The notes beneath the pieces were generated by a model. That model did not search any database and was not told the origin of the DNA. It worked only from the letters and a program-made list of their open reading frames with translations. Shown piece by piece: positions 1,681-48,164 of a DNA stretch of 64,000 bases. A program made the translations under genes and the position numbers. This stretch comes from Agelas oroides (Eukaryota; Porifera; Demospongiae; Agelasida; Agelasidae), in assembly GCA_949130485.1 (NCBI GenBank), contig OX422184.1:22219506-22283505 (forward strand). The letters run 5' to 3'. Numbering within the stretch: position 1 is the first letter of the stretch; every line of letters starts with the position of its first letter.

Positions 1681-1779
1681 CTCTTTCTGTTGGTTTACAT
1701 CAGCTCCATTTTTCAATAGGTAGGCAACAACATTTTGATGACCTCGCCAGCTGGCAAGGTACAGTGCACTCTGGCCAGT
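1681..1779 (-). CDS. ankyrin exon, first type, repeat unit A
   Basis: A 99-nt, phase 0-0 exon with acceptor gtattcacag and donor gtgaga. It encodes TGQSALYLASWRGHQN, then VVAYLLKNGADVNQQKE, the diverged homologue of the B and C exons (changes include E to Q, AK to WR, and QI to NV). It is the last ankyrin exon visible before the window ends; the gene must continue below position 1, because no stop codon or poly(A) region belonging to it is seen. Confidence 0.88.
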
Positions 1780-2638
1780 CTGTGAATACAAGGGATGCAG
1801 AATAAATTGCTGGTTATTCCCACTGTTTTACAAATGCTCACACTGTCTGCTTAGCTTCATTCCCAGGCATGTCTACCCCTCCAGTTTTTGGTTGATGAAA
1901 ATGATAAAGAGTGGAGATTGGGAAAGGCCTGGGAATGTGGCTGTAGCTAGTTCAGACAGTTCACCATTCAATAAGCATAACAATAATTATACAGAGTGGA
2001 CTATGTAGTTCTTGTAAATTGATGACCTTCCTCACTATTTACTGTTAACAGGTAAATGGTAAAATTAATGTACTTGTGAGGTACCATTGATAGTGGTGAT
2101 TAGAGCAATTTGTCCAACATAATTGATGACCTTCCTCACTATTTACTGTAGTAGATAATGACATAGAATCAATGTACTTGTGTGGTGCCATGGTGATACA
2201 TGTAATAAGAGTAATTTGTCCAACATAACAGTGAGACAGGTAGTGTTGAACTCTAGTCGATGTCATCTTGGAGGAGAGTCTCAGCTGATGAATAATCATA
2301 TTCTCACAGTATATACGGACAGGGATCAGTGTGAGGTTAAGTTTCAATACAAGTATTAGTGTGCATAAGCACAACAGTATTGTCTCAGATACAGCCCTTG
2401 TGAAGTGGAAATGCAGTGCCTCTTACGTAGCCGTAGCTTACATTGTAGTATGGCACATGTGGTTTGAACAGCACACTTTGGAAATGGTTTGGAATTTTAT
2501 GTCAGGTTGGGTGCTTAGTGTTCGACTTCTGATTTGATAGCTGGCAATAGGTAGAACAAAATTTCAACATTTCATGCAGCTTAAACAATCTTCTATGCAT
2601 GTTGAGTGCAACCTCTGGGAAGCAATCAGACTACTACA

Positions 2639-2897
2639 TGTGACAGTCCTGTGCAGAAATCGAAGATTGTTTCGTTGTGTATTTCGTTTGCATCGCTGTG
2701 TTTGAAGTGCCGTATTGCTGAACTTCCATTAAGGGCAGGGCTCATGTGCTTCGTAGATGCAAGAACATCTTCTGAGTCTATGAAGTGCGTATGAGCCCCG
2801 ACCTTAACGGAAGATCAGTGATATGGTGCTTTGAACGCAGCAATGCAATCGAAACATGCAACGGAATGATCTTCAATTTCTACACGGGACTGCCACA
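2639..2897. mobile_element. palindromic MITE, old copy
   Basis: A diverged relative of 9454-9714. Ends are tgtgacagtcctg and gggactgccaca; the centre holds the two arms around gggctcatgtgcttcgtag. Many mismatches between the arms show age. Absent from the matching place in units B and C (about 19155). Confidence 0.75.
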
Positions 2898-3139
2898 CAC
2901 ATATGTATCAACCAAAACCGCAGAGGGAGGTAAATGAAGTTAGTGGTGTACATTTTCATACATGGCAACCAAATGATGCTGCTAAATCCCTAGCAACAAA
3001 TTGCAGAATCTCACATCTGTATACACATACGTACACTGGTATGACACAAGGCTTCCATGGGACACACCCTGTGGTGCTGGCAAACTATGTTACACATTCA
3101 ATGTGCTTAATGAGAAATTGGTATGGCTAAGTTTTATCA

Positions 3140-3719
3140 CAACCTCGTTTCCACACTCTCCCCACATGCAAACAAAAAACCTAAAAGAAAGAGGAGAGCC
3201 TGGAAAAATTTATCACACGAGAAATGTCATAGGTGGAGAGAAATGTGTGTGAACGAATGAACTCACCCACGCTTTATGGACAGAATACTTGCTTGGTTGG
3301 GAAAGCTTTCTTGCCAACAGAACGGTACTAGGTGGCACTACACTACATTACATGGCAGTACAGCTAGCTATGGTGAGGGTACACAGACCCGCACTTTTGA
3401 AAATCACGCTAACTTACTCGCTTACCTACCAAACTGACCACTGTACACTCCGGAGAATGGCTTTCTAAGTGCTATTAAACACAAATGTGCCCCTTTCCTA
3501 GGCTTTGGTCAAGTCTACTCTGCGCTTACTCTTTGAAAAAAAACACAGAATGGGCTCCTACTAAAACACGGCTATGTGTACTGTCGATTAAGCAATTACG
3601 TGCGTGGGATCCGCATATCCTCAATTAAATCCTCTACCCTCTTTCTGTCACTCACGTAATAAATTATTCCAGGTCCTTTACTGCTTTTCTGTACTGGGTG
3701 GGGCCTGGCAATGAGGCTA
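3140..3719. mobile_element. old TAGCCTCG-family element carrying a decayed reading frame
   Basis: The left end (aacctcgtttccac, then atttatcacacgagaaatgtca) and right end (gtcactcacgtaataaatt...ggcaatgaggcta) match the ends of the elements at 25340-25994 and 37871-38512 in reverse. The interior (about 3300-3590, plus strand) is a mutated copy of the unknown frame carried by those elements, for example tactcgcttacctaccaaactg and ctaggctttggtcaag. It sits at a different site from the B/C element, so it is an independent insertion. Confidence 0.7.
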
Positions 3720-3747
3720 ACTTTATCGTAGCCCAGGGCAAATAGCT

Positions 3748-3860
3748 ACACTCTTGTATCTGGTCAGTGGTTAGGTTGGGGCTTCCCCTACTAATATGAG
3801 TGGGTTGGTCTAGAAGCCCTCAAGGGGCAGAGTACAATGAATGGTAGAAGGCTGCCAGAG
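3748..3860. repeat. dispersed repeat, truncated copy (SINE-like head)
   Basis: It shares gtggttaggttggggcttcccctactaat and agaagccctcaaggggc with 7583-7990 and 42930-43320. Only the first 110 bp are present. Confidence 0.55.
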
Positions 3861-3931
3861 ACTGACAATGAGGCTGTATTTTGTACACCTCTTGAACAAT
3901 TTTGTTCCTAATTATCTATGATTGCACCAAC

Positions 3932-4030
3932 CTTGTCCTGGGAGTTGATATGAGCACCATGCTCTATCAGCAGTTTCACTACTTCTTCTTGACCCTCTTG
4001 TGACGCAACTGATACGGGAGACGCACCATC
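3932..4030 (-). CDS. ankyrin exon, second type, repeat unit A
   Basis: A 99-nt, phase 0-0 exon with a strong acceptor (caccctgcag) and a weaker donor (gttggt). It encodes DGASPVSVASQEGQEE, then VVKLLIEHGAHINSQDK, an ankyrin repeat with SPVS in the TPLH position. Only unit A keeps this exon intact. In units B and C the matching position holds only the last few codons next to the same donor, followed by unrelated or decayed sequence. On the minus strand it precedes the exon at 1681-1779. Confidence 0.85.
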
Positions 4031-4444
4031 CTGCAGGGTGAACAATACAACCCACATGTTAATCAACAACATTCTTCTTAGCAACAATCAATACTCGTCT
4101 CTTACTGACTGTCACTAAGAACCACATTATTGATTATTGTGATATTCATTTGGTGTCTAGCACAAATTGTTTACTGCTAACGTGGAGCTACTGGTAAACA
4201 CAAGTGTACTAGGTGACCATCTTTTGTGGATGAATGTGAGAACACTTGAGTGTCCACTCCCCTCATTGGTGAACATGCAAGGTGCACTGCTCAATGGCAG
4301 GTCTTTCACGAGACAACACTACTTGCAGACTGATTACCTTCTTCACTATCTACCACAATATACATACACGTGACTGTAAATGGAACACTATGGTGTGTAA
4401 CTTCATTTGCCATGGTGATAACTACATCGTTTGGTCAACTATAA

Positions 4445-4550
4445 GTAATAGTTATATCCCTCCCTGGGGGTGGTCGTTTTACACATTTGTGTCGGGCATA
4501 GCCCAACACAAATGTGCAAGACCACACCCCAGGGAGGGATATAACTATTA
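4445..4550. repeat. foldback (perfect-arm hairpin)
   Basis: taatagttatatccctccc pairs with gggagggatataactatta, followed inwards by ggggtggtc and acaaatgtg arms, with a short loop. A MITE relic; no reading frame of interest. Confidence 0.75.
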
Positions 4551-4632
4551 TATAACCTGTTACCTAGGCAACATCACTGTAGAAGAGAGATATGGGCAAC
4601 ATTCTTATATGTTGCCTAGGTAACAGGTTATA
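4551..4632. repeat. second foldback adjoining the first
   Basis: tataacctgttacctaggca at the left and its exact complement ending at 4632, around a 30-bp loop. It directly abuts the preceding hairpin, so one foldback may have inserted at the end of the other. Confidence 0.75.
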
Positions 4633-5311
4633 TCTATCATTAATAGTTACTGTCAAATTTGTAACTAATGCAAGTTTATACCCTCACAATCCATTTGGCT
4701 ATGCATGTGTAGTGATTCACATATACACACACTGCAGTACAAATTCATCTTATTACACATCTAGTATGGTACATGGCTGTCCTTGGTCTTCAAAAGCACC
4801 CTTAGTGGTATCAGTTGTCAGGAAATAGCAACCAACTATAAACATTGGTACAACCTTTAAATCTGTAAACATGGAAAACTGATCTACTGGTTTCAAGAAA
4901 TGTGGTGATTTCATGCTCCTCCTAATCTGACTTGCTCTTGTTATCATGGAGGTTTCCACATGCTAAAAATCTACATAATTATAAGGAAACCTTATCAGCA
5001 ACTGTTGAGTGTAAACAGAGTCAAGTACTTTATAGTGCATGATGCACTATATAAATTTACAGTGCTGTATAGCAACCAAAAGGTACTGCTATATCCCTAG
5101 CAACAACACTGCTGACCCTCTCCTCTGGTACCTCTCATGTAGTTAAGGCTTCAGTTAGCTCGATGACAGCTTCATTTCAAGACCCGTTCCAAAAATTGGA
5201 GAAAATGGGTCTGATATCCACTGTTTGCGCATGTGCAATTAGTGCGTAAAGCTCACTTGAAAACCACGTATGAATGTGTCAAATGACATACATCAGCTTT
5301 CATATTCAATA

Positions 5312-6117
5312 TACCGTAGTGTCCCGTTAATACGCCCCCCCATTTTGTACACTACATCCCGCCTAAAGTGGGGGGGGGGGGCTTATATTCGAGGATGCAA
5401 TTAGTCTCGACTATAAGCCCCCCCCCCCTCCCCCAAAAAAGATTTTACGCAAGTGCTATGTACGCAATTAGGACACTTCCAAAGCTCATGTTTGCCTTTC
5501 ACTATCAACTAACTACGGCGACGACTTTCAGGATCGAGAGTACTGTTCGCGGACATCACGTTTACAAAGCTGCGTGGTCTCCCTACATCGGAGAAGAGCT
5601 GCCAGTTCAACACGAGGTCAATAACATTCACGACGACTTCGCTGTAGCTGTCCTCAAGAACGGCAACACTGTCGGTCATGTACCACGGGAAATTTCCAGA
5701 GTCTGCTGGTATTTCTTGCACAAGAGTGGCAGCGAGATGACCGTTGCATCGTCAATGGTGACAGAAGACGTTCTGAAGTTGATGGGAAAGGACTCGTGGT
5801 TCCGTGCGTGTACATCTTCAGAGGGAAACAAAAACACCTTGACAGACTGATAAACCTGTTTGCTAAACTAGCAGCTTAAAACTTGGAACATCTAACCAGC
5901 TTTTCTAAAAGCCACAAAACTTACAAAAGATTCACCGACTACTATAGTCCTACTGAACGCACTTGCAACGCATAGTAAGCACGTGTAGTTTTGATGTTCC
6001 AGAAGACGCTCACCGGGGGGCGTTATAACGAGTCAAACTACCCTGTGCAGGAACTTTGGCGGAAAAGAGGGGGGGGGCGTATTTTCGAAGGGGGCGTATT
6101 AGCGGGACACTACGGTA
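5312..6117. mobile_element. TACCGTA-family TIR element carrying a HIRAN-like fragment
   Basis: Termini taccgtagtgtcccgttaat and its near-exact complement attagcgggacactacggta, followed inwards by C-rich and G-rich arms (tacgcccccc; ggggcgtat). A nested G/C hairpin lies at 5369-5436. The interior carries a protein-coding fragment (5458-5879). Possible TA target site. The element at 41307-41876 has related termini (taccgta...tacggta). Confidence 0.8.
5458..5879 (+). pseudogene. captured HIRAN-like domain, frameshifted
   Basis: From Met at 5458 the frame includes RIESTVRGHHVYKAAWSPYI, GEELPVQHEVNN, HDDFAVAVLKNG, VGHVPREISRVCWYFL and SEMTV. This is the HIRAN-type pattern (VRG.HVY..W.P..GE.L, D..AVAV, VGH.PR.IS). 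Near 5745-5760 the meaningful frame shifts: the family-like C-terminus VVPCVYIFRGKQKHLDRLIN is read in another frame and stops at 5877-5879. The unshifted frame runs on to a stop at 5848. HIRAN domains bind DNA ends in helicases and nucleases, but a frameshifted fragment inside a transposon is unlikely to be functional. A single sequencing error could also explain the shift. Confidence 0.75.
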
Positions 6118-6654
6118 TTGGTAACAAGTGAGTGCTGCTTCCCTAGATCTTTGAACACACCTTCCAACCCCAGTGCTTATCACTTGAACTGTGGTGTCGA
6201 CGTAGGACAATTTAGACACCACAAATGTAAGCTGTAACTTTGTAACACAAATCATAACTAGCCAAACCCATAAGCAGTCATACTTCCCTAGGAATGTATG
6301 TTTCAAAGATGCTTTCTTTTCAAGTTTCAGCACCATTGCTCCACCTCAAATTTGCAAGAAGGCATACAACATGGCAGAATCTAGGTCTTACACACAAATA
6401 ACCATCGTTAACATGCAGTGTACGATTAAATGTACGACAATATACATGTACCTGAGTCTTATCCCAAATTCCCAGGGAAATTAAGCGCATGTGAAAACAG
6501 GCTAGCTCGACAAGGATGTGCTGAGCATAACATACTTGCACATGGCACCAGATGTCATGTAAGGGTGCTTTGTTTTACACCCACAACACTGCTGTTTTCA
6601 CATGCATGTATTACATCCAAATGCATTTGTAATCCAAAAAATCATGGAATGTGG

Positions 6655-7306
6655 TAGCCTCGTACCCAGGCCATGTGGGAAGAGGGAAAAGTGGCCTGGT
6701 ATCCACTGTTTGCGCATGCGCAAAAAAAAACATGATTTCATGGGGTATAGTATACCATCGTTTACGAACCATTAATCTTTACCGTATACTGGCATACAGC
6801 TCTGAAGCACGTCCGTCTCGAGCTTATCCCACGAACATGGCAGGTAAAAGCAAGGACTTTGATAAAGCGTTCAAGTTCGTTCTTTGTTGTATTGCAAAGG
6901 GAGATTTCACGTTGAAAGCAGAGCAGCTGGATGCGATCAAATGTATCTACGATGGTAAAGACGTATTCCTGTGGCTACCCACGGGATTTGGTAAGTCCAT
7001 CTGCTACGAGACTCTGCCGTTTGTTTTCAACTACAAGCACAGTGACGGTGGAACCGGCGGTGGTTGTAGCGTAGTCCTTGTCGTGTCACCCTTTGTGTCT
7101 CTGATAATGGAAGCCATCGCCACGTAAACACAGCTGCCTCACTGCAAGCCGTATATCTAGTTTGGTTATTTCTCGCATAACAACCACATGTAACTTGTCC
7201 ATAATTGGACTCTTTTGCGGAAGATTTCCGGAATCGTTCACGCATGCGCGAACAGTGGATACCAGGCCACTTTTCCCTCCTCCCACGTGGCCTGGGTACG
7301 AGGCTA
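6655..7306. mobile_element. TAGCCTCG-family element carrying a RecQ fragment (Pack-type)
   Basis: Inverted ends tagcctcgtacccaggcca...tggcctgggtacgaggcta, with arms extending through ggcctggtatccactgtt and the gcgcatgcgc core (about 65 bp each). A perfect 9-bp target duplication, ggaatgtgg, flanks it at 6646-6654 and 7307-7315. The interior holds the helicase fragment at 6837-7127. The 9-bp duplication, long TIRs and captured coding DNA fit the Mutator (Pack-MULE) pattern. Confidence 0.88.
6837..7127 (+). pseudogene. captured RecQ-family helicase N-terminal fragment
   Basis: A 96-codon frame from ATG 6837 to TAA 7125. It holds the RecQ motif 0/I block: FTLKAEQLDAIKCIYDGKDV, then FLWLPTGFGKSICYETLPF with the Walker A lysine in GFGKS. 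A motif Ia-like VVLVVSPFVSLI follows before the frame stops. A functional RecQ needs the DEAH box, the RecA2 lobe and the RQC domain, all missing. The frame is still open and unmutated, so capture was recent or the fragment is conserved. It lies inside a TIR element and has no introns in the part seen. In the intact parent, VSLM would continue into motif Ia/II. Confidence 0.85.
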
Positions 7307-7582
7307 GGAATGTGGCTACACACTTCATGTGACTTCCAGGCATAGAGTGTAGAGTGTAGTAAATGGAAAGTTGACTTATTTGGATACTTTGAACAGCACC
7401 CTTTGGAAATGGTCCTGATTTTCATGGCAGGATGAATGCCTGGTGTTTGACTCCTGATTTGATAGCCGATTACAGTTACAAAGTTTCATACAGCTCAATC
7501 GATTATACGTGATAGATGCAAATACACGTCACAGCAGCAATTGAGTTTCATCACAGCCGTAGGCAATTAGCAACACCTTAGA

Positions 7583-7990
7583 TATCTGGTCTGTGGTTAG
7601 GTTGGGGCCTCCCCTAGTAACATGTTGGGTTTGATCTAGAAGCCCTCAAGGAGAGGAGCATAGTGAAACCAAGAAGCCATGATGGTTGTTGATCAGGTCG
7701 ATCACAAAAGTGACTCATTCGCCTCATTTTCTTTCAACGCCTGTAAGCAGAGACACAACGCTACCTACAAAGGTGCAGCGGACATTAGGCTTCATACCTA
7801 TCAAATCAGTTCTGGGATTGCACCTCATTGTCAACAAGAAAAGCCAAAGACGCTACACACAACTATCCCAGAAGTAAGTGTTCCACACAAACTGGTACTA
7901 CTATGCTTCAGAACCACTTACACAGGTTAAAATTAACCTTGTAAAACCTTTCTTCATCTTTTTTTCCTTGGTCTGTAGAGTTCTGTTTCA
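7583..7990. repeat. dispersed repeat, about 400 bp (SINE-like head)
   Basis: It matches 42930-43320 along its length: tctgtggttaggttggggc, agaagccctc, the middle gtaagcagagacacaacgct and the end ttgtaaaacctttcttc. The first 60 bp resemble a decayed tRNA-type promoter (gtggttaggttgg as A box, ggtctagaagccc as B box). No long reading frame is shared by the copies. Confidence 0.55.
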
Positions 7991-9453
7991 GATCTCAGAC
8001 GCTTCAAATTTTAGATAGAAGTTTTTATAATGGTTCACCTCATGTGACACCAAATTCCTGCATGTAAAGTTAAAGTACATTCCAATGAACTTAGGGTATA
8101 ATCGGTTAAACTATCTTGTAGGCATGTTGAGTTCAAACTCTGGGAAGTAATCAGACCAACAAATGTACGTACAAGTAAACAAGATTTTCAAGACAAAAGT
8201 TTCTAATTCTTAGAGGTGAAGCCCTGCTATCTGTAAACACATTCAAGTGTTGGGAGGTACTTAGTGGTGTACTGTGTTACATACAAATGTTGATGCATAG
8301 CAAACAAAATAGTGCTGATTAGCAACAACATTCCTGACCCTCACCTGTGAATACTCATACATTGGTCATGAAACAAGGGTTCCATCATATGCACAGAACA
8401 GAGATAGTCAACATAATAGGAAAAATTCTGTAACCCTTGTTAAGGTCATGTGGATGCTCGAGCAGCGGAGTGGGGATGGCAGACACAAACCCAGCTGTGG
8501 TTTGTGATTGAGACAATGGATGAAAATTATTAATTTGGATGATCACATTTGACTGTGAACACATTAACACGGGATGCTGGGCGACTCAGGTGAGCAAAAA
8601 CTTGTGCACATTATTATGGACAGGTGTATCTGAACTTCAAATTCCAGCATATAGCAGTTATTCACAGATGATTGCTTGCTGTGTATGGGAATAAAGTGAT
8701 GCATACTGCTGTAAATTGGGAAAAGTTTGAGCTGTAAAATTTTGCAAGATAACTTTTCATGCTAAAATATTTTCATAGGCCGTCATTTCTATCAAATGTT
8801 TTAACACTGAAAGATTCATGTGAAGCATCAAGGCGATCGAGCTCTGGTGTGGGCATGTGAGAGATTCAACTGTGGATGAGCTACCTCTGGCCAAAGACTA
8901 TAGTTGCATTTGTGCCTACCATTATGTACCTTGATTGCAATCACTCGTGAAGGCAGACGACACCCCTTGAGCAGATGCTTCAAAAGCAACATCTAAATAA
9001 ACATACTGCACTAGCACTGCTGCCTCGATCTGATTCATTTGTACTCTGAACTTCTGATCCCAATGCTCAAGTTTGCTGGTAGCAGTACTTACCTTGCAGG
9101 CAAGTAAGAAAACTGAGATTTACATATTTTGTTTTATAAAATTAGCCATGAGTTTGATTTTCGTTGCTATCTACGACCACAAAAATATTGTAATGCTGAA
9201 ATTTTCACAATTTACCGTAGTTCATAAATGTTATTGTGTTTACATATAGGTGCAAGAAATGCTCTAGACACTTAACAAATTTGTAATGGTGTGGACATAA
9301 CAATAATGTGTACTGCAGAAAGCAAATGATAGCACTATGCATTGTATATAGCCGTTGCCTATCTCTATTCTGTGTGTATATTATCTATGCTTCCATCTTA
9401 TTAACGCGCTTCAGAGTAACTCTGCTATACCAAATACCATGCTACAATGCATA

Positions 9454-9714
9454 TGTGGCAGTCCCATGTAGAAATCGAAGGTTATTCCGTCGCATATTTT
9501 GACCGCATTGCTGCATTCGAAGCGCCGTATCGCTGAACTTCCGTTAAGGGCGGGGCTCATACGTGCTTCGTAGATGCATGAATATCTAATGAATCTACGA
9601 AGTGCATATGAGCCCCGCCCTTAGCGGAAGTTCACCGATACGGCGCTTCGAATGCAGCAATGCAGTTGAAATACGCGACGGAATAACCTTCGATTTCTAC
9701 ACAGGACTGCCACA
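9454..9714. mobile_element. palindromic MITE, young copy
   Basis: 261 bp, almost entirely one inverted repeat: tgtggcagtcc...ggactgccaca, with long arms through aaatcgaaggttattccgtcgc and cgccgtatcgctgaacttccg. Flanks aatgcata and tatgcata suggest a target duplication of 7-8 bp, hAT-like in size. The empty site is seen in unit B (about 19450, acaatgcatacg). It codes for nothing and would fold into one long hairpin. Confidence 0.85.
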
Positions 9715-10268
9715 TATGCATATGACGTGATTTCTCAGGGTAGGTAGGTAGAAACATGGTGAGGCCGATGGAGCTAACTGGTAGAGGAGAGAGACTGGTG
9801 GTAAAAGGTAAGGGGAAGGGCTAGGGTAAACTAATTCTACACTACTAGTACTATGCAGCATGCATGGAGTTACGGACTCAGCTGTTCTAAGAATTAAGTA
9901 TGGGCATTTTGCCATCATTCTGTGTCTTCAGGGGCTATGAAATGGGGTTATAAAATTGTCGCAAGGGATTGAGGTGATGACGGTTGGTTCCTTGACAAGA
10001 AAATCAAGGCAAATGTCGGGGGATTCTGACTTTATCTTTCTGATGTAGCGGTAAACAATATAAACAGTGGAGATTAGTTCAGGAAATTGAAGAACTAAAT
10101 GTTTCACATCACATCTACAAATCCACAGTGATACACAACAGTAGCTAGCTAGCTAGCCCATGAATCCATAGCACTACATGCTACAACTATCATGATTCAC
10201 TCTTTTGAAAAAGGACCTAGGCAGTTTAGCTTAACTTTGCTAGATAGTATAGCTTTATAGCTCTGCGT

Positions 10269-10503
10269 AGATGGTTTTCATGGGGCGTGGCTTCACTTCC
10301 GGAGGGCAAGAGTCGGGGTCTGTGTTTCGTGCAGTTACGTGCAAAACACAGGCTAGTAAGCGCTACATCAAGTCCTTACCATTAGTACTTAAAGATAAAA
10401 GAAGCTGCTTCTCTCAAGGTGAAAGATCCGCTGTACAGCTGCCTCTTGATCGCACGTTTACCCTCCGGAAGAAGGATGCTTAATTGACATTTGGAAACCA
10501 TCT
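10269..10503. mobile_element. TIR element with open frame, unit A only
   Basis: Inverted ends agatggttttca...ttggaaaccatct, with secondary inverted motifs cttccggagggcaa and taccctccggaaga. Units B and C read straight through at this place (gctctgtatagtcaatgagc), so it is a unit-A insertion of about 235 bp. The interior is open on the plus strand (10271-10483, YIKSLPLVLKDKRSC region) and may be captured coding sequence; not recognised. Confidence 0.65.
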
Positions 10504-11300
10504 ATAGGCAATGACCTATGGGGTAGCTATTAGTGTGTATATACAGCACTGTGATTTTGCTGGCTAGCAACTTTGTGTAGTGCTGTAGATTTCCTGGCTA
10601 GCTATATATATAAGCACAGCTAGCATCAATACATGCAGCAATATCCAACTACTGAACTGCCACTGAGAAGCTTTGACTCACCCTCTCTCTGGCTGTAGGC
10701 TGTTAGCTCTCAGGCATGTCAGTAGCTGTACCTTGACTAGGGGCCAGCAGTAAAGCCAAACAAGACCTACTAACTCAACATTTTATTGAGCTTGAAGAAG
10801 ACTAGAAATTTGAAAAAAAAATGAACAGCAGCTGTACTTTGCAGCTGCTATGAGTTTGTGGAGCCATGGTAATTGTTTACAGTATCATTTGTGCATGTAT
10901 GGCTGTTCTATGCATGTAAAGAACAGAACCACGCCTGATCATGTATGGGCTGGAAGGAAGACTGATGAATGAAACGTACGTGGACTTGTACACTGATGCA
11001 TACAGTGGTAGATCTGTGCATGTATCGTACATGTACCACAATCTCTCAAAAATAGGCCCACCCTCAAAAATAAGCCCACCCCCCTTTTTGAATGAAGTTG
11101 TTGCAAAGGGTGCTTTTCTCCTGATAGTACTCCCACCAATTCATGCTGTAGTACATGCATTTAGGGCAAGCAAGAAGCACCAAAGAAGCAGTAGTGTATA
11201 AGAGGAGGGACTAACAAATGAAGGCAGACACCATTTGCTGTTGTTGCATAAGCAAGCGCATGCATTGCAGAATCACTACATGCGTACATAACTAGGACTA

Positions 11301-11676
11301 ACTGCGAGGGAGGTGGGTGTATTTTTCGAGAGAAATATCACAACTCTCGAAAATACGCCCAACCTCTTTATTGAGGAGCCACTTAAGTTCATTGCCCATG
11401 GGCGTATTTTTGAGAGATTATGGTATTATGCAGCGTACATGCACAGATCTATAATTCCATGAACATTAATGCAATGGATATGGAATTAACTGCGAGTGAT
11501 GTGGGCGTATTTTCAAGAGAAATATCACAACTCTTGAAAATACGCCCACCACCCTCTTTGAGGAGCCACTTAAGTTCATTGCCCATGGGCGTATTTTTGA
11601 GAGATTATGGTATTATGCAGCATACATGCACAGATCTATAATTCCATGAACATTAATGCAATGGATGTGGAATTAC
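11301..11676. repeat. 188-bp tandem duplication containing hairpins
   Basis: Two copies starting at actgcgag (11301 and 11489). Each contains an inverted pair (gggtgtatttttcgagag / ctctcgaaaatacgccc) and gcccatgggcgtatttttgag. The nearby 11040-11090 has related ctcaaaaataagcccaccc. These resemble ends of the TACCGTA/AATACGCCC family, rearranged in place. Confidence 0.7.
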
Positions 11677-12744
11677 TCGAATGTACAACACATTGTCCAT
11701 AGACTATGTGTAGTGTAATTGGAAGCATAATTAAGCAGGCATTGCATGGTGCATAACTGGGCCTGGTATGCAGTGGGCATTAACCATTATTCCAAGGTTC
11801 TCATTACACACAAGAACATGGTATGCTGTGGTCTTGTGGTTTGTAGCATAACTTCTGACTTGCTATGTAAACATGGAAGCCTGTCTCAAGATCCTTAGTC
11901 AGGGTTTCATTTGGGGGTGGGGAGTGGGGGGCATTTGCACCACGTTGCCAGTGTCTCGCTTCCCCTTGGAAATTAAGTTAGCCTTTTTTTTTTCAAGGGG
12001 TAATTGGATGTAATGAATATACAGAACTGAAACTCAACACAAGGAATATACAGCATAAGGTGACCTGAGGCTAAACACAAGGAGAATGTACAGTTTTTAA
12101 CCTAAACAGCTATTCTTCTACTCTTTCTGTTCCACGTATCTACAATGTCTTCAAGGTCACTATCTATAGACAGTGTGCCTGCATGGGGGTGGTCCATATA
12201 TTATACTTGAAAGTATACGATTTTCCGCATACTCACTGCCATTTTGTAGGGCAGCAGAATATAGCAGTAATGTACACGTGGACCCCTTGTTGGCTCCTTA
12301 CCAGCAATACTGACAGCTGGATTGATTAGTGGCTAATGTATGTTATAAGGCTAATAGTGATGTATGTCATACGGCAGCGATTTTAGATGCGGGTCATGGT
12401 AATGCTCAGCAGTCAGCTCACAACCTCGTCGCTGTATAAACTTGCTGTCCACAGAGCAATTTTTTTGCCCTACATTACTTCATCAGAATATGACGTCACT
12501 GCCACTTGTAACCACGCTCAATTAGGCACATGGTCTATAGGTGTTAAGTGTCTTATCAGCACCAGAAATATGGTCATCTCATCATGTCACTTGAAAACCA
12601 CAAATGGTCTGAAAATGCACCAGAAGCAATCTCAGAGGGTCGGAAATTAGTGGCCGTTATCCGTATTAACGAGTGACTGTTCAGTGGGTGCTAGTATGAA
12701 TATAGCGTATTGGCAAATATTTTGGGACCATCCTTACTGACTGC

Positions 12745-13693: not shown

Positions 13694-14795
13694 ACGAACC
13701 TTGCCTGGCAACAATTTCATAGCTGGCGAATTTATATCATTATGTCATTGTTTATAAACATGCAGCTGTAAATAAAATGTTGTGCATGCCGGTTGAAGAG
13801 CATGCACACGGGGACGAGAAACTAATAATTTATTTTACTTGACCTTAGAGCCAGTATTTATTTCATTTTTCTCAATGAGCCTGCATGTGTTCCAACTGCA
13901 TGTAATACTCCGCAACCTAGCCTATGCAGTGGGGAGGTTATTAACCATTGTCATGGTTATATTGTACTTTTACTCACTCTGAATACTGAATCGAAGTACT
14001 TTCCCCTTATGTCAATTATCGCAATGTTCTGCACACGTGGATTTTCCTTAAAACCATGTGGCATCCTTTGGACTTCAAAAGTGGCTGCCATGAGAGTGTG
14101 AGTCTATGCCAACAGTCGGGAAGTAGCCCACTGAGTCAGATTCTTGTTTAGCTTCATTTTTGTCTGAAAGTTACTGAAGACAGCGCAGTGATTATCAATA
14201 AGCTCCTTGCAAGACTTGTGACCAAGCACTCTCGCGAAAGCCAGCAAAAGAAATATCTTTGTTAATTTTTTGGCACCAGCATGTGTTTAAAGGGAATGTT
14301 TTAGCATAGCTGGGCACAGATGATAAGCCTTTTATTTCAAAGAATGTCAACATGCTTGTTTTAATATAAGTAAACATTAGACAACATACTAATGCATATC
14401 TGACAAATGAAAACAAAATGAAACTATCACCTTTAGTCATACTTGACAGCATTTTCACATCAATAGTCTAATGCTAGATACCAATCCTCCTGTAACAATC
14501 AATATCATACATAAGTGTGTATGTATACTAGGCAAATGTAGGACATTGTGGAAGTGAGCGAATGCTGCAGTCGTCATCAGGGTGAAATAGCGTGTTAAAA
14601 ATTCCATTCTGTTGAAACGTTGGCAGGTTGGTAACAGATAACCTTCCTCTTCATTTCTGATAATTTTTGGGCCTGCTCATTCTCACACACACTTTAGCCA
14701 TGCAGATAGAAGACTCACAGTGCAGACTTACCATACTCTAACTTAGTGTTCACAACAGCTACTGTGGCTACACAGTCTAGGGATTAAGAGATCCA

Positions 14796-15260
14796 TACAC
14801 TGCAAAAACTAAAAGGTTGTTTAAACCCAGCTTGGGTTGCCTCAGTTACAGAAAAAATGCGCACACAAGCCGATCAACTATAGCTCTCCAATTTCAGAGT
14901 GAAATACGCAAGAATGTTAGCTAGTCATGTTTCCTGGATAACATTACCTAGTTTAATTGTTTACTCTTATGCCTTAAGTCTCCAATTTCAAACAGAGGAG
15001 TAAACAATTAAGCTAGGTAATACTGTCCAAGAAACATGACTAGCTAACATTTTTCCGCATTTCAGTACGATTATCTGAAAATGGAGGTCTATTAACAATG
15101 TAATTGATCTGCTTGTATGCACATTGCTTGGCAGTGAAGCCACAACTACGTAAGGAAAGTATTACTAATTGATCTGCTTGTATGCACATTTTTTGGTACT
15201 GAAGCTGCAACTGAGATAACCCTAGCTGGGTTAAAGTAACCCTTTATTTTTTGCAGTGTA
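14796..15260. mobile_element. CACTGCAAAA-type TIR element with nested foldback
   Basis: Termini tacactgcaaaaac and ttttttgcagtgta, with arms through aacccagctt and agctgggtt. Inside, a second inverted repeat (ttagctagtcatgtttcctg...caagaaacatgactagctaa) surrounds a short centre. A direct repeat attgatctgcttgtatgcac occurs twice at 15100-15190. No transposase is seen. Confidence 0.75.
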
Positions 15261-15956
15261 TAACATGAAGCAAGTATGGTGATCTCTGCTCTCTATATAC
15301 CAGAGTAGCATAGCTTGGTCACCCATTACCTTGCTTGATAGTCATGCATTGTTAGTCCTGTTCCAAGACCATATTGTTTACACTAGCTGGCTGTCAGCAG
15401 CATGACTTTCTGTCTTGCATATCACCCAGCTTGAGACAGCTTTGGGAGCTGAGGCAAATTAACATGTTTGTCATGCAACTGGCAGTTGATATGGAACTAC
15501 ACAATTTTCCACTGAGTACATGTGGTGCAATAATAATTACTGTATTGTCCCGGGCAAGCAAGCGCTCACCCCCCTATTTCGACTGCTCTATGGTTTTTAG
15601 AAGTCGTTTGTTTAACCGCCAACCACACAAAATTCTTGTGTAATGACTCACAATTTGTTTGCCGCTGAGCTCATATACATAGCTGCGATCATTTTGATGA
15701 GCTTCAGGTGCCACTGCAGTCGGCAGCAAGGTTTGCACACACCGGTCATAGCCTCGTCCGCTATGTTCTCCTCTAGCAGTGCGATATTCATGTACTGCAG
15801 GCGATCAACGCTGCAAGCCTTGGAAACGAGACTGCAGGTTGGCCCGTTTTCTAGCACACTACAGCTTTCTACACTGCCATGCTGCCCTCACTTGGCTAAA
15901 GGATGAAGCATGCGTGAAGCGACAATGTGATAGCTCCTGTCTGATCAGGGTGGGTG
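15261..15956. other. non-coding stretch before unit B
   Basis: Only short chance reading frames occur. No splice-bounded exon, domain or inverted repeat convinced me here. Confidence 0.5.
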
Positions 15957-16634: not shown

Positions 16635-16768
16635 TAGCCTCATTCCCAGGCCTCCTCCATTTTCGTTCTTCGGTTTGCGTTCAATATACTACACGCTCTT
16701 CCGCCTCCGTTTATTATATTGAACGCAAACCGAAGAACGAAAATGGGGGAGGCCTGGGAACGAGGTTA
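16635..16768. mobile_element. TAGCCTCG-family foldback element, unit B
   Basis: tagcctcattcccaggcctc...ggcctgggaacgaggtta, with arms cgttcttcggtttgcgttca and complement. Perfect 9-bp target duplication tacctttat at 16626-16634 and 16769-16777. Confidence 0.88.
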
Positions 16769-17773: not shown

Positions 17774-17866
17774 TAGTCTCGCAAGCCAGACCTAACCAAC
17801 CCCAGTGCGGATCGCTTTCAGTATAACGCACGGCGCTGTGGTTGGTTGGGTCTGGCTTGCGAGAGT
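17774..17866. mobile_element. short TAGTCTCG foldback element, unit B
   Basis: Orthologous to 1108-1191, with the full left arm (agacctaaccaacccc) pairing with the right arm (ggttggttgggtct). Confidence 0.75.
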
Positions 17867-35800: not shown

Positions 35801-37252
35801 TCTTAGTTTATTACGCTGCTAGTATAGAATAATTTGTGATTAAACAAATTTCTATCCTTTGGAGGAAAGCTAGACTGCTTGGGGGAAGTTTCCCCCCTTC
35901 TCCGACCTGTAGGTGAAACCCTGCCAAACTACTCAAAACTGCAACTGAGAAGCTTGGATTCACCCTATCTCTGGCTGTACTAGGCAGCTAGCCCTCAGGC
36001 ATGTCAATAGCTTGATTTGGGACTAGTAGCAAAGCTACGCAAGGCTACCTCAACAGTCATGACCACAGAACTACTAGAGCTAGACTCCTCTTGTAAACCT
36101 TACAGAAATTAATAAAAGGCAGCTGCACATCTTTGTGGAGCCAAGGTAACTGTTTACAGTATCATTTGTCTATGCACTTCTGTTCCATGCCTGAATAGAG
36201 GTAAGCCATGCCTGTTCCATGCATGGAATGGTAGACTCATGCTGACTTAGTGGAGCCAAGGTAATTTTTTAGAGTAACATGTGTCCACACATGGCTGTCC
36301 CACCTATTTCTTGCATGAACTTACACATGAACTTATGTATGAAGAGAACCATACCTGTATCATGCATGGCACAGAATGGAGGATGATGAATGGAACATGC
36401 ATGGAATGGTAGATCCGTGTAGTGCATGTATTACGCATGATACATGTATGGATCTACCACACTATATGTGCACATGTGCAGTTTAGCATTAACCCAATGG
36501 ATATGGATTACTCACAGATGTACAAACAATACATTCCATAGACCTACATGTAATGCAATAATGATCAATGCCCACTCAATACACAAGAACATGCCATGCT
36601 GTGCTCTTGTGGTTTTGTAGCTTATTAACCTCTGACCAGCTGTGCAAACTTGGAACTGTCCCAAGATCCTTCCTTAACCATGAGTGTTCTTCCCAGCTTT
36701 TATTATACCACTATGTCATTACCACCTCAAATTACATAAGCTCCCAACAATATGCCCCCCAACCCCTTTTTACATACCACTTTGAGGTAAAAGTTGGGAG
36801 GTGTATGCTCGAATATTCAATTAGCATCGTTCATACACCCCACACCCCACCAGGCTCCTCGTGATGTTACACACAAGAACAAAATCACGACGGCTTCTGT
36901 GACTATCTGGAAGAATGGCAGCTTTTCCAAAGTGCACTACGGAAACTCACTGACACTTGTATAGATACTAAGCTGAGAAGCATTGAAGTAACTTGCTTCA
37001 TCAGTGGTGACACAGAAGGACCCTGTGTAAGCTCATACTGCAAACAAAAATGACACTTGCTATGGGGTATTTACACAAGCGAGAAATACTTATGCAAGGG
37101 TTAGGAGGGCATTTGCAAAGAAGCAAGCACAGCAAAGTAGACAGCGATAGGGAAGTCACTATGCCATCTGATTTTGGTGCTAGTCAAAGGTTGTAAAACC
37201 TCACTAATGTCCACAAACCCATCAAAAACACACTCGTACACCCTTGGGTACA

Positions 37253-37360
37253 AACTCTGGGAAGCAATCTGATCAACACAGTACATCACTATCTTCAAGG
37301 CATCTTGGGTGCAAACTCTGGGAAGCAATCTGATCAACACAGTACACCACTAAGTACCTC
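37253..37360. repeat. 61-bp tandem repeat, two copies (unit C)
   Basis: The same motif as 24661-24830, in two copies only. Confidence 0.85.
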
Positions 37361-37870
37361 CCAACACTTGAATGTGTTTACAAATAGCAGGACTTCACCT
37401 CTAAGAATTAGAAACTTTTGTCTTGAAAATCTTCTTTGCTTGTGCGTACATGTATTGTCTGGTATGTACATTTATTGTTGTCAATGATGTATAGTAAACA
37501 AAATAGTGCTGATTAGCGACAACATTCCTGAACCTCACCTCTGAATACACATACTTTGGTCATGAAACATGGGTTCCATCATATGCACAGAACAGGGATA
37601 GGCAACATAACAGCCAAAATTCTGTAACGCTTGTTAAGGTCATGTGGATGCTCAAGCAGCTGAGTGGGGATGGCATACACAAACACAGCTGTGGTTTGTG
37701 ATTGAGACAATGGATGAAAATTGTACTTTTTATTGATTTGGATGATCACATTTGACTGTGAACACATTAATATGGGATGCTAGGCAACTCGGGTGAGTAA
37801 AAACGTATCCAGTTTTATGCGCACATTATTATGGACAGGTGTAGCTGTAAGGAAATAAAGCCAGTATTTA

Positions 37871-38512
37871 TAGTCTCGTTCCCAAGCCTTCCCACTGTCC
37901 AGTTTTGGTCAATAACTGGACAGTTCCCAGGCCACTCCCAGTTTTTCGTCATTTGCAGCACAGAAAACCGGTAGAGGGCCTCGAATAATTTATCACGTGA
38001 GTAACGTAGAAGGTAGACAGGACTGAATTGAGTGTAGGCAGATCATCGATGTGCCCACGCACGTGGTTACGTAATCGACAGTTCACGCAGCTGTGTTTTA
38101 GTAGGAGCCCATTCTGACAGTTTTTTAGCGCAGATAACACTTGAGCAAAGCCTAGGAAAGGGCTGCCTTGGTGTTTAATACGTAGCACCTGGAAAGCCAT
38201 TCTCCGGGTGTACAGTGGTCTGTTTGCCAAGTAAGCGAATAAGTTAGCATGATTCTCGAATGTACAAGTCTGTGTATGCTCACCATAGCTTGTCATACTG
38301 CCAGGTAATGTAGTGTAGTGCTGACTAGTCCCGTTCGGTCGGCTAAAAAGCTTTCGCAACCGAACAAGTATTCTGTTAATAAAGTGTGGGCAAGTTCATT
38401 CGTTCGCCCACTTGTAATTCATCTCCCTCTACCTGACATTTCTCACGTGATAAATTTTACCAGGTTCTCCCCTTTCCTTTCAGTTTTTTGTTCGTGCGTG
38501 GGGATGAAGCTA
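37871..38512. mobile_element. TAGTCTCG-family element carrying an unknown frame, unit C
   Basis: The unit-C copy of 25340-25994, with the same ends and inserted hairpin. A short indel near 38008 removes part of the gaaggtagagagaaggtag duplication seen in B. Confidence 0.75.
37990..38359 (-). pseudogene. captured reading frame of unknown function, unit C
   Basis: The counterpart of 25497-25839. The frame stays open, with substitutions such as SR to SR(P), SCMYC to SCVNC and STTS to SMTS. An open frame in both copies mainly reflects a recent common origin, so it is weak evidence for function. Confidence 0.55.
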
Positions 38513-39429
38513 AGACTTTTCTGAGTTTCATTTTCGTTGCTATCTACGACCACAAAAATATTGTAATGCAGAAATTTTCACAATGTACAGTAATGTTATT
38601 GTGTTCACATATAGATGAAAGAAATGCTCTAGACACTTCATAAATTTGTAATGGTGTGGACATAACAATAATGTGTACTGTACAAAGCAACGTAAATGAT
38701 GTCACTATGCATTGTATATGGCTGTTGCCTATCTCCATTGTGAATATTATCTATGCCCCTGAGTTATTCAACAACCTCATCCAAAACATCTGTATGCCCC
38801 ACCCCCAAATTTGTGTAGCTATATTAAACAGACTTGTTAGGTACTATCTCGACAAGCATTGACCTTTACCACTTCCTGTCCTAGTTACTAGGCGCTCTAG
38901 TTACTATCACAGCAAATATGATCAAATATCAGAAAACATTGTTAAATGTGAATGCGTGAGGCCAATGGGGCTAATTGGTAGAGGAGAGAGACTGGTGGTA
39001 AAAGGTAAGGGAAGGGCTAGGGTTAACTAATTCTACACCACTAGTACTATGCAACATGCATGGAGTTACGGACTCAGCTGTTCTAAGAATTAAGTATGGG
39101 CATTTTGCCATCATTCTGTGTCTTCAGGGACTATGAAATGGGGCTATAAAATTGTCACAAGGGATTGAAGTGATGATGGTTGGTTCCTTGACAAAGGTTT
39201 CCCTGAAAAGCAAGACATATATCGGGGGATTCTGACATTATATTTGTGATGTAGTGGTGAACAATATGAACAGTGGAGATTAGTTCAGGAAAATTGAATG
39301 TTTCACATCACATCTACAAATCCACAGTGATAAACAGTAGCTATCTAGCTAGCCCATGAATCCACACCATTACATGTTACAACTATCATGATTCACTCTA
39401 TTGAAAAGGGAGCTAGGCAGCTTGGTTTA

Positions 39430-39721
39430 CAAGGGGTAGTCACGTATGTGTCCTGTGTAGAAGTGTTTGCGACCGGGATCAAAATCGAATCAAGCGATCA
39501 AAGCCCTTTTGGGGAGCCGATCAAGGGATCAAGGTGACCTCCAAACTCTTAAAATCAACGGATCAAGAATGAGCGCCCACAATTTGACCTTTGACCCTTG
39601 CAAATCAAGCAATCAAGAGCCTCAGAAGGTAACAATCAAGCAATCAAGCACACTTTTTGCCGATTAAATAAATTGGTCGCAATCGTAAACGCTTCCACAG
39701 GCAACAAGTGACTACACCTTG
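39430..39721. mobile_element. MITE with GATCAA-rich interior, unit C
   Basis: The unit-C copy of 26940-27232. The left end caaggggtagtcac and right end gtgactacaccttg pair better here, and the target site gttta is exact on both sides. Confidence 0.72.
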
Positions 39722-39992
39722 GTTTAACTTTGCTAGATAGTATACCTTTATAGCTCTGTATAGGTAATGAGCTATGGGGTAGCAATTAGTGTGTATATAC
39801 AGCACTGTGATTTTGCTGGCTATCAACTTTGTGTAGTGCTGTAGATTTCCTGGCTACCTATATAGGCACAGCAAGCGTCAATACATGCAGCAATATCCAA
39901 CTACTGAACTGCAACTGAGAAGCTTTGACTCACCCTATCTCTGGCTGGAGGAAGTTAGCCCTCAGGCATGTCAGTAGCTGTACCTTGACTAG

Positions 39993-40352
39993 GGGCCAGC
40001 AGCAAAGCCAAACAAGACCTGCTAACTCAGCAACTGCAGAGTACAGTTGTTGTTCATTTATTTTCAAACTTCTAGAGGAGTCTTGCTCAAGCTCTGTGGT
40101 TATAAAATGTTGAGTTAGCAGGTCTTGTTTGGCTTTGCTGCTGGCCCCTAGAACAGCCATACATGGACAAATGATACTGTAAACAATTACCATGGCTCCA
40201 CAAACTGTTAGCAGCTGCAGAGTACAGTTGTTGTTCATTTATTTTCAAACTTCTAGAGGAGTCTTGCTCAAGCTCTGTGGTTATAAAATGTTAACAGTTT
40301 GTGGAGCCATGGTAATTGTTTACAGTATCATTTGTCCATGTATGGCTGTTCT
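39993..40352. repeat. complex inverted duplication in unit C
   Basis: 39993-40030 is inverted at 40111-40148. 40150-40210 is inverted at about 40290-40352. The 76-bp middle segment occurs twice in direct order (40036-40112, 40218-40292) and is reversed relative to units A and B. The unit-B order is X-M-Y (27490-27680); here it is X-M'-X'-Y'-M'-Y. Confidence 0.85.
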
Positions 40353-41306
40353 ATGCATGAAAACAACAGAACCACGCCTGTATCATGTATGGCCTGGAAG
40401 GAGACTTGTAGACTCATGCACACAATGGGTAGATCCGTGCATGTATCGGACATGTATTACGCACAATACATGCATGGATCTACCATATACTATGCATAGC
40501 CCATTGGCAATGGATATGAAATTACTCACAGACGAACGTACAAACATTTCTTTCCATAGAGTACATGTAGTGTAATAATGATGTGAACTTGTAGACTCAT
40601 GCACACAATTTTTGCCTCTTCTAGCATAGTACAATGATTAATGTACACTTCATACCAGGCCAAGTTATAAACATGTCATGTACCAATGCCTGCTTGAGGG
40701 TGTTTCTAACATGCTAATCATACACTAGAATATGGCATGCTGTGGGCTTGTGGTTTATAGCCCAATAACCTCTGACTTGCTATGTAAACATGGAAGCCTG
40801 TCTCAAGAGCCTTAGTAACTATGAGTGCTAGCTACTCCTCTCCTACTTCTCACACTACACAGTGCATGGTCAAAATGTATTGAAACAGCAGTGTACATAG
40901 TGAACAAAGATAGGAGTGCAAATTGAATTAAAACTTAAAAACTATTCTATGGTAGACCAGTTAAAATTTTTGCCTCTTCTAGCATAGTACAAGAGATAAC
41001 AATCTCTCCTGACTACACCAACTGGTCCCTATAGTAACAACACTGCTGACCCTCACTTCTCTATACACATACACATATGCATTGCAGCATGATATTTGGT
41101 ATAGTTCAGTCAATCTCAAGTGCAGTGATGAGATGGAAGCCTGATGTATAACAAATGTGACATAATTTTTGAGGATAGATCACAGTTGGCATCAATTAGA
41201 AATCCTCTGGAAACCTACTTTGACCATGTAAATATCATCATGGTAAACCAACCCACACCATTAAACATCCTATTTATTACAACTATTCATGTACATGTAA
41301 CTATAG

Positions 41307-44939: not shown

Positions 44940-45360
44940 TCATTCCTGGATTTGCTCAAAATTGGAATGCTAGATATGACTAAGACCCAGAAGGAGTCAT
45001 ACGTAGCTCAAAAATGCCAGATCTGAGGAATGAGTGGAGCATAATGGGAGCAATGGAAGCATGATAAGGCGAATTTCTCGGAATTTCCTAAGAGCATAAC
45101 TTGGGCCAAAATTTGAAGCATAAAAGTAAAATATGCAAAGTTAACATACATGTGTGTTGCCATGGTGATAATTAGAGCAACATAACAATGAGACAGATAT
45201 TGTTGAATTTTTAATTGATGCCATCTGGGAGGAGAGTCTCAGCTCATGAATAATCATGTTCTCACAGTATACACAGACAGGGTCCAGTGTGAGGTCAAGG
45301 TTCAATACAGTACAAGTATTAGTGTGTACAAGCATGACAGCATTGTCTTAGATACAGGCC
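44940..45360. repeat. partial unit relic D, ankyrin exon deleted
   Basis: It matches unit B from about 17080 (gctcaaaattggaatgctag) to 17305, then jumps at the motif attagagcaa to B positions from about 18778 (cataacaatgagacagatat) to 18960. The skipped part contains the ankyrin exon. The breakpoints fall on two direct repeats of the motif attagagcaatttgtca that are present in every full unit. Confidence 0.8.
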
Positions 45361-45455
45361 TTAGAAGTAGTGTGTAGAGTGGGGGAGCACCAACACCGCT
45401 GGCACATCGATGTTCAAAATTTCACACAAAGTGTGAAGTTAAAACATAAAGGGAG

Positions 45456-46261: not shown

Positions 46262-46575
46262 GAGGCTCACTCACAGTGTGAAGCTCATTCACATTAAAAA
46301 TTACGAGTGTGAGGCTCACTCACAGTTACGCTACAGGTGTGAAGCTCATTCACACTTGAGTTACCACTGTGAGGCTCATTCACCGTTATGTTACAAGTGT
46401 GAAGCTCATTCACATTTTTAAATTATGAGTGTGAAGCTCATTCACACTTCAGTTACATGTACTACTGTGAGGCTCATTTACCGTTACGAGTGTGAAGCTC
46501 ATTCACACTTGAGTTACTACTGTTACGTTATGGGTGTGAAGCTCATTCGCATTTTAAATTACGAGTGTGAGTGTG
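46262..46575. repeat. minisatellite of gtgtgaagctcattcac units
   Basis: About ten degenerate 30-bp units alternating gtgaggctcactcac and gtgaagctcattcac, separated by tta-cg-tac spacers, giving a higher-order unit near 60 bp. The repeated tagtaacggc at 46110-46190 precedes it. Confidence 0.8.
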
Positions 46576-46744
46576 TTAGGATAAGGGCTTTATACTTTAT
46601 ACACATGTATCTATGTGGAGATGGATAAAGACGGGGTCTTTTTGACTACAGCTGTCCTTCCTCTCGCAGTTAAATACCCTGTGGTAGCTAGGTGGAGATC
46701 CCCTGCGGACGGGGTTGCGGGCCTGGGTGGGTTGAATACTGTGC

Positions 46745-46749
<5 letters not shown>

Positions 46750-46776
<27 letters not shown>

Positions 46777-46823
46777 ACACACATACACACACATACACAC
46801 ACACACATACACACCACACACAC
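46750..46823. repeat. (CA)n microsatellite
   Basis: A run of acacac interrupted by atac and accac. Reading frames across it are artefacts. 46830-47730 has no supported gene. Confidence 0.9.
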
Positions 46824-47737
46824 CTTTAGAGATTCAACTTCGGTTCTATATACCACATATTGGGGGGAAAATGCGTGTGTCTAAAGAATGTGTCTAAAAT
46901 GGCAAGGTTTGCACAATCTTTGCTCCTTAGATGTGGACCTGATATGGCAACTGTTTTGTATTATGAGAGCTGATTAACAAGGTCAAACATATTCAAAGCT
47001 AATGTAAAACAAAACCACAAAGTGCAAGAACTGTGTTTGAATATACCCAACTTTCAATTCACATTCTTTTAACCTCAAATCTTTATTTTTGGACAAATCA
47101 CAATCCGTGCTCTAATGGTCAGTAACTCATACGTATACCATCACAGGACCTGGGAACTTTGCTTATGAACTTGTACTTGCTCCATATCAACAACCTACTC
47201 AGACCCTCAACGTGTAGTACAGAGCTGACAACCAGTGACTGAAACAATAATAACCTCAGTGCTACAAAAACACATCGTGACGACTAATGTGTGTCATGAC
47301 AAGCAGCAATAATACTGTAAAAACACTTCGGCCCAGACTAGTCAGACTAGTGGCATTTGGGTCCAAATATGGTCTCAAAAGCAACCCCAGAGCAAAAACG
47401 TTTCCTAGGGGTCATGCCTTCAGACCCCCTCAACTTGTGCATCCTTATTCATACACCAACATGTGGAGCCTAACCTATCTGACAACTGTCACACTGACCC
47501 CAACTGGCAGCTACGACTTCGGCAGAAACTTGTTACACAATGTATAGTTTGGGAATCAACATTCGGTAGTAGATGGTCTTAAAGTTTTGTTCCAAGGCTC
47601 TCCCCTCTAAAGGAGGGGTTTATTGTGGGAATGAGGCTAATCACTTAGTCCTATCCAGAATACTCATTGCTAAACATGATAGTAGTACACTGTCAGTTTA
47701 AATACTTACGTGTACAGCATTGCTACGTACTCCTTAC

Positions 47738-47836
47738 CGCTAGCTGTGCATTCACATTGGCTTGATTGGCAAGCAGAAGCATACAAATTCTTGAATCTCC
47801 TTGGTAGCATGCCGCCAACAGGGGTGTCCATCCCTC
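47738..47836 (-). CDS. ankyrin exon 3
   Basis: A 99-nt, phase 0-0 exon with acceptor ctgcag and donor gtaagg. It encodes EGWTPLLAACYQGDS, then ICMLLLANQANVNAQLA, a canonical ankyrin repeat with W in place of the usual small residue before TPL. It is the last of the three closely spaced ankyrin exons. The next ankyrin exon downstream lies about 16.6 kb away, in repeat unit C. Confidence 0.9.
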
Positions 47837-48065
47837 CTGCAGAACAATACATCAGACAAAACAATTGTTGCCTCAATGTCTTCTGGCCTCAAAACCTTAC
47901 ATATGTAGTATGGTACTGTGTATATATCATCATCACTGTGATATGCTTCTCCATTATATCATACTGGCACTTGACATATGTACTATGCAAGTCTTTCTCT
48001 TCTCCTATCATGTCCTGCAAGCAAGGCCAGTAAAACCATTGGGTTTGAGTTGCATAAGTACATAC

Positions 48066-48164
48066 CTTATCCTGTGCATTCACAGTAGCTCCACAGCCTA
48101 TTAACAGGCTGACAATGCTCAGCTGTTGATTGTAGCTCGCCAAAATGAGAGGTGTTCCTCCAAT
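48066..48164 (-). CDS. ankyrin exon 2
   Basis: A 99-nt, phase 0-0 exon with acceptor ctgtag and donor gtatgt. It encodes one full ankyrin repeat: the turn and first helix GGTPLILASYNQ, the second helix IVSLLIGCGA and the loop TVNAQDK. The key ankyrin positions G-TPL, A, V-LL and GA.VN are present. Ankyrin repeats stack as a protein-binding solenoid. Confidence 0.9.

Follow-up and report, generated by a model that had tools for sequence, protein, structure and literature searches.

The locus described here raises the question of how a gene for a repeat protein gains and loses single repeats. The window, that is, the whole stretch of 64,000 nucleotides (nt) from the sponge Agelas oroides that was analysed (C2:22219506–22283505, where C2 is contig OX422184.1), carries on its minus strand a putative gene with a death-domain-like exon, a conserved head exon and several ankyrin exons, and forms one end of a 1.28-Mb cluster. 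A preliminary description of this DNA saw in it the growth of a single gene by copying of 12.7-kb units, each copy adding one repeat. We consider it probable that the cluster is a tandem array of death-domain/ankyrin genes in which symmetric exons sit in long units and have been shaped by both exchange and selection.

In the mechanism that we propose, each gene would run from a death-domain-like exon through the conserved head exon and the proximal ankyrin exons to the downstream unit exons, with the downstream single ankyrin repeats encoded by 99-nt phase-0 exons in long, mostly intronic units. Unequal exchange between units would add or remove whole repeats, and the symmetry of each exon would preserve the reading frame; the frame would likewise withstand the deletion or decay of an exon within its unit. 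Short exchanges between units would swap exon alleles, while selection would hold the exons open, so that exon variety would persist even beside introns that have become alike. The assignment of each unit change to gain or to loss, like the role of selection behind the exon variety, is something that we infer.

Ankyrin exons and tandem units of the window

The exons of the window's gene are listed below in the order of transcription. Two families were distinguished among the downstream exons, F1 (the type of B1, C1 and A1) and F2 (the type of A2), and the last six exons are each 99 nt long, in phase 0, open and flanked by AG and GT.

56447–56777, minus strand: death-domain-like exon, with a gtatgt donor next to it; its 5' limit is uncertain
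49366–50129, minus strand: conserved head exon with no named domain found, ending in phase 0 at a gtaagt donor
48902–49000, minus strand: first ankyrin-like exon, 99 nt, phase 0
48066–48164, minus strand: proximal ankyrin exon p1
47738–47836, minus strand: proximal ankyrin exon p2
31033–31131, minus strand: exon B1 (F1), within unit B
18348–18446, minus strand: exon C1 (F1), within unit C, identical to B1
3932–4030, minus strand: exon A2 (F2), with 11 genomic copies
1681–1779, minus strand: exon A1 (F1, W type)

The four downstream exons thus have the length and phase given in the preliminary description, and three proximal ankyrin exons, as it placed upstream of them, are present, at 48902, 48066 and 47738, each of 99 nt. 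All three exons compared with the Pfam ankyrin family PF00023 (31033, 3932 and 1681) scored above its cut-off of 21.1 bits, with E-values of 1.2e-8 to 1.2e-7, and p1 has two additional genomic copies with 98–99% identity. As read by eye, phase 1 is shared by the end of the death-domain-like exon and the start of the head exon, and every ankyrin exon is in phase 0, so that in-frame joining is possible; the death, head and ankyrin exons would be spliced into one mRNA. The head exon may also have a start of its own at an in-frame ATG (50137–50139). Among the 22 public protein homologues of the head (38–85% identity, none of them named), P0002, P0013 and P0021 continue the head frame into a stretch closely resembling the first ankyrin exon. 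The next death-domain exon begins ∼ 207 kb past that of the window, which makes a single gene across the window plausible; the earlier one-gene picture holds to that extent and gives way, beyond it, to a cluster with at least seven heads.

The downstream exons lie in units of the following extent, two of which retain traces of a further exon.

28643–41278: tandem unit B, a direct repeat of unit C
15958–28642: tandem unit C, a direct repeat of unit B
23–11899: older unit A, matching C 17128–28173 collinearly, in pieces, with large unmatched gaps
32804–32843, minus strand: remnant in B of an F2-type exon, decayed to its 3' end and donor
20118–20155, minus strand: the corresponding remnant in C, a decayed F2-type 3' end

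The junction between B and C is exact: the same letters start at 28643 and 15958, the right ends match up to 41278, and the homology at the junction is a single base. The two units are 99.25% identical across the 4.3 kb that contain the exon and 92–97% identical in the remaining long blocks, and each has one intact exon. Unit A aligns collinearly with C, in pieces separated by gaps, at an offset of ∼ 16.7 kb. Thus, two 12.7-kb tandem units do exist, but they are not part of a series holding all four exons, as had been thought: the exon at 1.7 kb belongs to the older unit A with its different offset, whereas the one at 3.9 kb represents the separate family F2, of which B and C keep a decayed remnant only. 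A2 has no intact partner in either unit, and a remnant of ∼ 40 bp of an F2-type end, including the donor site, lies at the collinear position in both. These collinear remnants make it most likely that an F2 exon accompanied F1 in the older unit and was lost from B and C. With single symmetric exons in long tandem units, the idea that copying of a unit can add one frame-neutral repeat stands.

Two other parts of the window may be mentioned here. At 5320–7127 (plus strand), within unit A, a HIRAN domain and a DEAD-box helicase domain are encoded in open frames; this stretch has no long match in B or C and is possibly a mobile element or a captured gene in the intron. Two adjoining pieces at 44975–45368 are 82–90% identical to parts of the F1 unit, with no exon between them, and could be the remnant of an older, exon-less unit.

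The cluster on C2 and its differences in unit number

The searched genome comprises 259 Mb in 141 contigs. Copies of exon B1 (19) and of exon A2 (11) were all found on the minus strand of C2 between 20.99 and 22.25M, an arrangement beyond chance. DNA search recovered six heads in the cluster, plus one weak match (65%) on contig C6; the seventh head of the cluster, 37% identical at the protein level, opens a second gene at 22.069M with a death-domain exon of its own, which brings the cluster to at least seven heads. F1 and F2 copies, assigned to genes by position, occur downstream of several heads, including the 37%-identical one. Across 263.5 kb of contiguous sequence including the window, 20 ankyrin candidates exceeded the threshold (the scan overlooks the weak first ankyrin exon of the 48902–49000 type); all are on the minus strand and in 18 of them AG and GT exactly bound a 99-nt (33-codon) repeat in phase 0. 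For a 1.1-kb piece of intron from unit C, at least 13 copies with more than 90% coverage and 92–100% identity were found, all in one orientation, over 1.23 Mb of C2. Among the 40 of 117 candidates scored for this piece, long copies are confined to the C2 cluster; short matches occur on contig C15 too, so that the unit may include dispersed repeats.

The equal length and symmetry of the candidate exons (18 of the 20) would also suit a cluster of alternative exons, in which each transcript uses a subset of the unit exons and one gene yields many isoforms; the brown algal leucine-rich repeat (LRR) exon arrays are alternatively spliced (PMC11378527). No feature of the DNA requires such splicing, although competing splice structures were not searched for, and we regard it as a possible but doubtful account of the locus.

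Evidence on unit number comes from a gene 1.23 Mb away, whose head matches that of the window at 100% in all but one of 11 alignment blocks and at 99.8% in that one, and in which the partner of A1 shows zero differences across 1.2 kb of flank. To judge from exon spacing, two F1 exons precede the A1-type exon in the window and one does so in this near-identical gene (an exon too diverged for the search would stay unseen): the distance from the head to the first F1 exon is 18.33 kb in the window and 18.35 kb in the other gene, whereas that from the first F1 exon to the A1-type exon is 29.35 versus 15.88 kb. The two genes are almost without differences at the sides, whereas B and C are ∼ 5% apart; on this basis the other gene has more probably lost a unit than the window has gained one, though C may also have been copied from elsewhere. 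In a unit ∼ 98% identical to A, in the same gene, a 344-bp deletion has removed the F1 exon together with parts of its flanks. The upstream F1 flank has 20 strong copies (40 of 61 candidates scored), 19 of which retain the exon, and the twentieth, partial copy is the unit with this deletion. This deletion, the decay of F2 in B and C and the one-unit state of the near-identical gene contradict the one-way growth envisaged in the preliminary description.

The single unit at the corresponding place in the paralogue could also mean that B and C are alleles of one locus that the assembly placed side by side, since an identity of 92–97%, as seen over most of B versus C, is within the allelic range of some marine invertebrates. 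We consider such an artefact unlikely, if still conceivable for this one pair: there is not a single N in the 49 loci that make up the 263.5 contiguous kb with the window, B and C are not evenly alike (99.25% identity over 4.3 kb, less in other parts), and the copies of the unit piece (at least 13 over 1.23 Mb) and of the exon flank (20 strong ones) cannot all be alleles of one place.

The loss and decay of exons in some units, and the excess of heads over close death-domain exons, raise a further possibility, namely that the units are non-coding debris of segmental duplication in decaying paralogues. Each of the 19 F1 exons found is open, with a length of 99 nt in 18 and of 96 nt in one (a count biased towards intact exons, since copies that have strongly decayed or diverged escape the DNA search), whereas 99-column windows in the flanks have a frame-breaking indel in 321 of 933 pairwise comparisons, which are not independent. 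A simple simulation without a tree gave a probability of 0.017 for zero stops in 18 unconstrained exons at 4.5% change, and the splice sites are retained. Debris is therefore, in our judgement, very improbable, and the cluster of genes with coding unit exons is the reading that we follow below.

Some observations from the same searches concern other sequences. At C2:22079000–22135000 (L038–L044), open-frame patterns recur at offsets of ∼ 29–34 kb, together with long simple repeats, which suggests another tandem duplication towards the far end of the stretch belonging to the window's gene. On contig C141 (22436 bases), mitochondrial COX1 matches are broken from 14659 to 15891, as they would be by an intron in cox1, and another COX1 match, without TGA, is present on contig C107.

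Probable exchange between units and the divergence of exons

The unit of the other gene at C2:21.02M is 99.53% identical to unit B over 8.1 kb, and the differences between the two are clustered around exon B1.

30302–31691: putative exchange tract around B1, holding 21 of the 25 substitutions between B and C2:21.02M

B equals C at 20 of the 21 tract sites, while to the right of the tract B equals the C2:21.02M paralogue and differs from C. This pattern would be the trace of a local exchange, in one direction or the other: when these 20 sites were compared with 16 other copies, the paralogue state was the majority state at seven only and was private at five, and the state of B and C was private at five. 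The identity of B1 and C1 most likely stems from exchange between B and C, before or after the gene duplication. Since it lies within the 99.25% block, and the rest of the units is less alike, it cannot be used to date the unit duplication. Among 18 copies of the exon, the four-gamete condition is violated by 25 of the 66 site pairs.

Exon divergence was compared with that of the flanks in 16 of the 19 F1 copies, leaving out two exact duplicates and the 96-nt copy. In seven of eight disjoint pairs, chosen on both flanks, the exons differ at 63 of 693 positions (9.1%) and the flanks at 117 of 4175 (2.8%); none of 62 overlapping flank windows reached 9.1%, the maximum being 5.3%. Choosing pairs on both flanks favours close flanks, and pairs were hence also chosen on one flank and compared on the other: the exon differed by 7.1% and the flank by 3.7% (six pairs, with one dropped and one over the limit), or, in the reciprocal choice, by 10.8% and 5.6% (seven pairs, with one over the limit). 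Of all 120 pairs, 94 have both flanks below 12%, and the exon exceeds the flank in 79. An excess was also seen in family F2, where two of the three pairs among three of the 11 copies, both involving A2, differ at 12 of 99 exon positions and by 2–3% in the flanks. The F1 differences peak in codons 8–23, with amino-acid changes mainly at codons 11, 12, 16, 20, 23 and 32. These data fit a history in which old exon alleles were moved by short exchanges while the introns became alike.

Over pooled whole exons, the proportions of nonsynonymous (pN, 0.075) and synonymous (pS, 0.149) differences both exceed the flank value, as would be expected if a mutational process targeted to the exons, instead of exchange and selection, sped up their divergence; that five of the 20 sites around B1 are private to the paralogue, and five private to B and C, also speaks for such a process. 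Many variants, however, are common to several copies as blocks, in several combinations, and the differences around B1 span ∼ 1.4 kb, well outside the exon. For these two reasons exchange of existing alleles fits better, and targeted mutation appears quite unlikely, if marginally less so than non-coding debris.

Several results nevertheless weigh against the combination of death-domain genes, exchange and selection favoured here, besides the bias of the F1 count towards intact exons. The death-domain-like exon scored 15.3 bits against the Pfam Death family (PF00531), below the cut-off of 22.6 (E-value 0.022), and one of eight homologues scanned matched this family, likewise below threshold; its structural model has six main helices, at low confidence, and Foldseek listed death domains in seven of eight rows, all with E-values of at least 1. 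Relatives of this exon are numerous (at least 150 matches in the genome), but close ones within the cluster number only four versus seven heads (for both counts, 150 of 627 first-look candidates were scored), so that some heads may be incomplete genes. For the head of the window no Pfam family, no PDB sequence match at an E-value of 5 or less and no fold match were found, residues 130–258 of its model having mostly a predicted local distance difference test score (pLDDT) below 60. Mixing is not specific to the exons: in a subset of 11 copies, the four-gamete violations involve 9 of 66 site pairs in the exon, 1 of 28 in the upstream flank and 18 of 45 in the downstream flank. In the eighth F1 pair (L014–L016) the flanks are 28% and the exons 11% apart, and the third F2 pair, again from only three of the 11 copies, has 2 of 99 differences and no excess. 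Finally, no excess of dN over dS was found in the pooled whole exons, to which no site model was applied, and, with synonymous change raised too, the divergence cannot be due to amino-acid selection alone.

A separate observation on the death-domain-like exon is that its profile matches, with an E-value of 8e-6, a short segment close to the start of CLK2 kinase chains (PDB chains of CLK2/CLK3).

The predicted exons would encode a signalling protein that acts inside the cell, with a death domain and, for recognition, a variable ankyrin surface; its role would probably be immune or self/non-self. More speculatively, and with considerable doubt, the cluster might parallel, in an animal, the receptor genes of brown algae, as a germline set of death-domain genes with ankyrin exons that are shuffled from gene to gene and spliced in varying sets, which would provide the sponge with a combinatorial repertoire for intracellular recognition.

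Comparison with known systems

Two features of this locus are those of receptors built from one repeat per exon and diversified by shuffling: the exons are of fixed length and symmetric (18 of 20), and exon families are shared and mixed between genes. A search of open-licence literature found no animal ankyrin system with units of more than 12 kb.

In the Amphimedon proteins with death-like and TRADD-N domains (PMC8195603), as in the predicted sponge product, death-like domains are N-terminal and accompanied by a further head region, the C terminus is variable, fast-evolving and often made of ankyrin repeats, and there has been a large expansion in a sponge. That account deals with proteins, not with exon units, and TRADD-N was not confirmed in the head of the window. 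The primate NPIP/LCR16a duplicons (PMC7419210) likewise combine duplicated blocks with fast-changing coding exons, but they are interspersed whole genes with no repeat-per-exon structure, and positive selection has been reported for them. A survey of domain repeats explained part of their expansion by exon shuffling (PMC1553488).

The Tetrahymena LRR genes, with nearly 50,000 exons of exactly 90 bp in phase 2 (PMC6564038), share with the sponge genes the arrays of equal symmetric exons, the growth of which was ascribed in that case to unequal crossing over; they differ in their repeat type and phase (PMC6564038). The candidate immune receptors of brown algae, of the LRR-ROCO and NB-ARC-TPR types, have LRR exons of 72 bp in phase 2 (PMC11378527). 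The sponge genes resemble them in devoting each exon, of fixed length and phase, to a single repeat, in exon shuffling, in variation at particular repeat positions and in a signalling domain elsewhere in the protein. They differ in being ankyrin genes of an animal, with 99-nt phase-0 exons, units of at least 12 kb and a death-domain-like start; the algal paper (PMC11378527) also reports positively selected sites, whereas no excess of dN over dS was seen in the sponge exons.

By analogy of exon structure, the one-repeat-per-exon genes known in brown algae and Tetrahymena are the closest counterparts of the sponge cluster. Inferences on how repeats are gained and lost mostly start from the finished proteins. 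In this one genome the states of the DNA itself stand side by side, and genes with one and two units, a deleted exon, a decayed exon, clustered differences and exons more divergent than their introns can be read directly. If the products are immune receptors, this cluster would join the algal and ciliate systems as an animal example of diversification through exons, here with ankyrin repeats.

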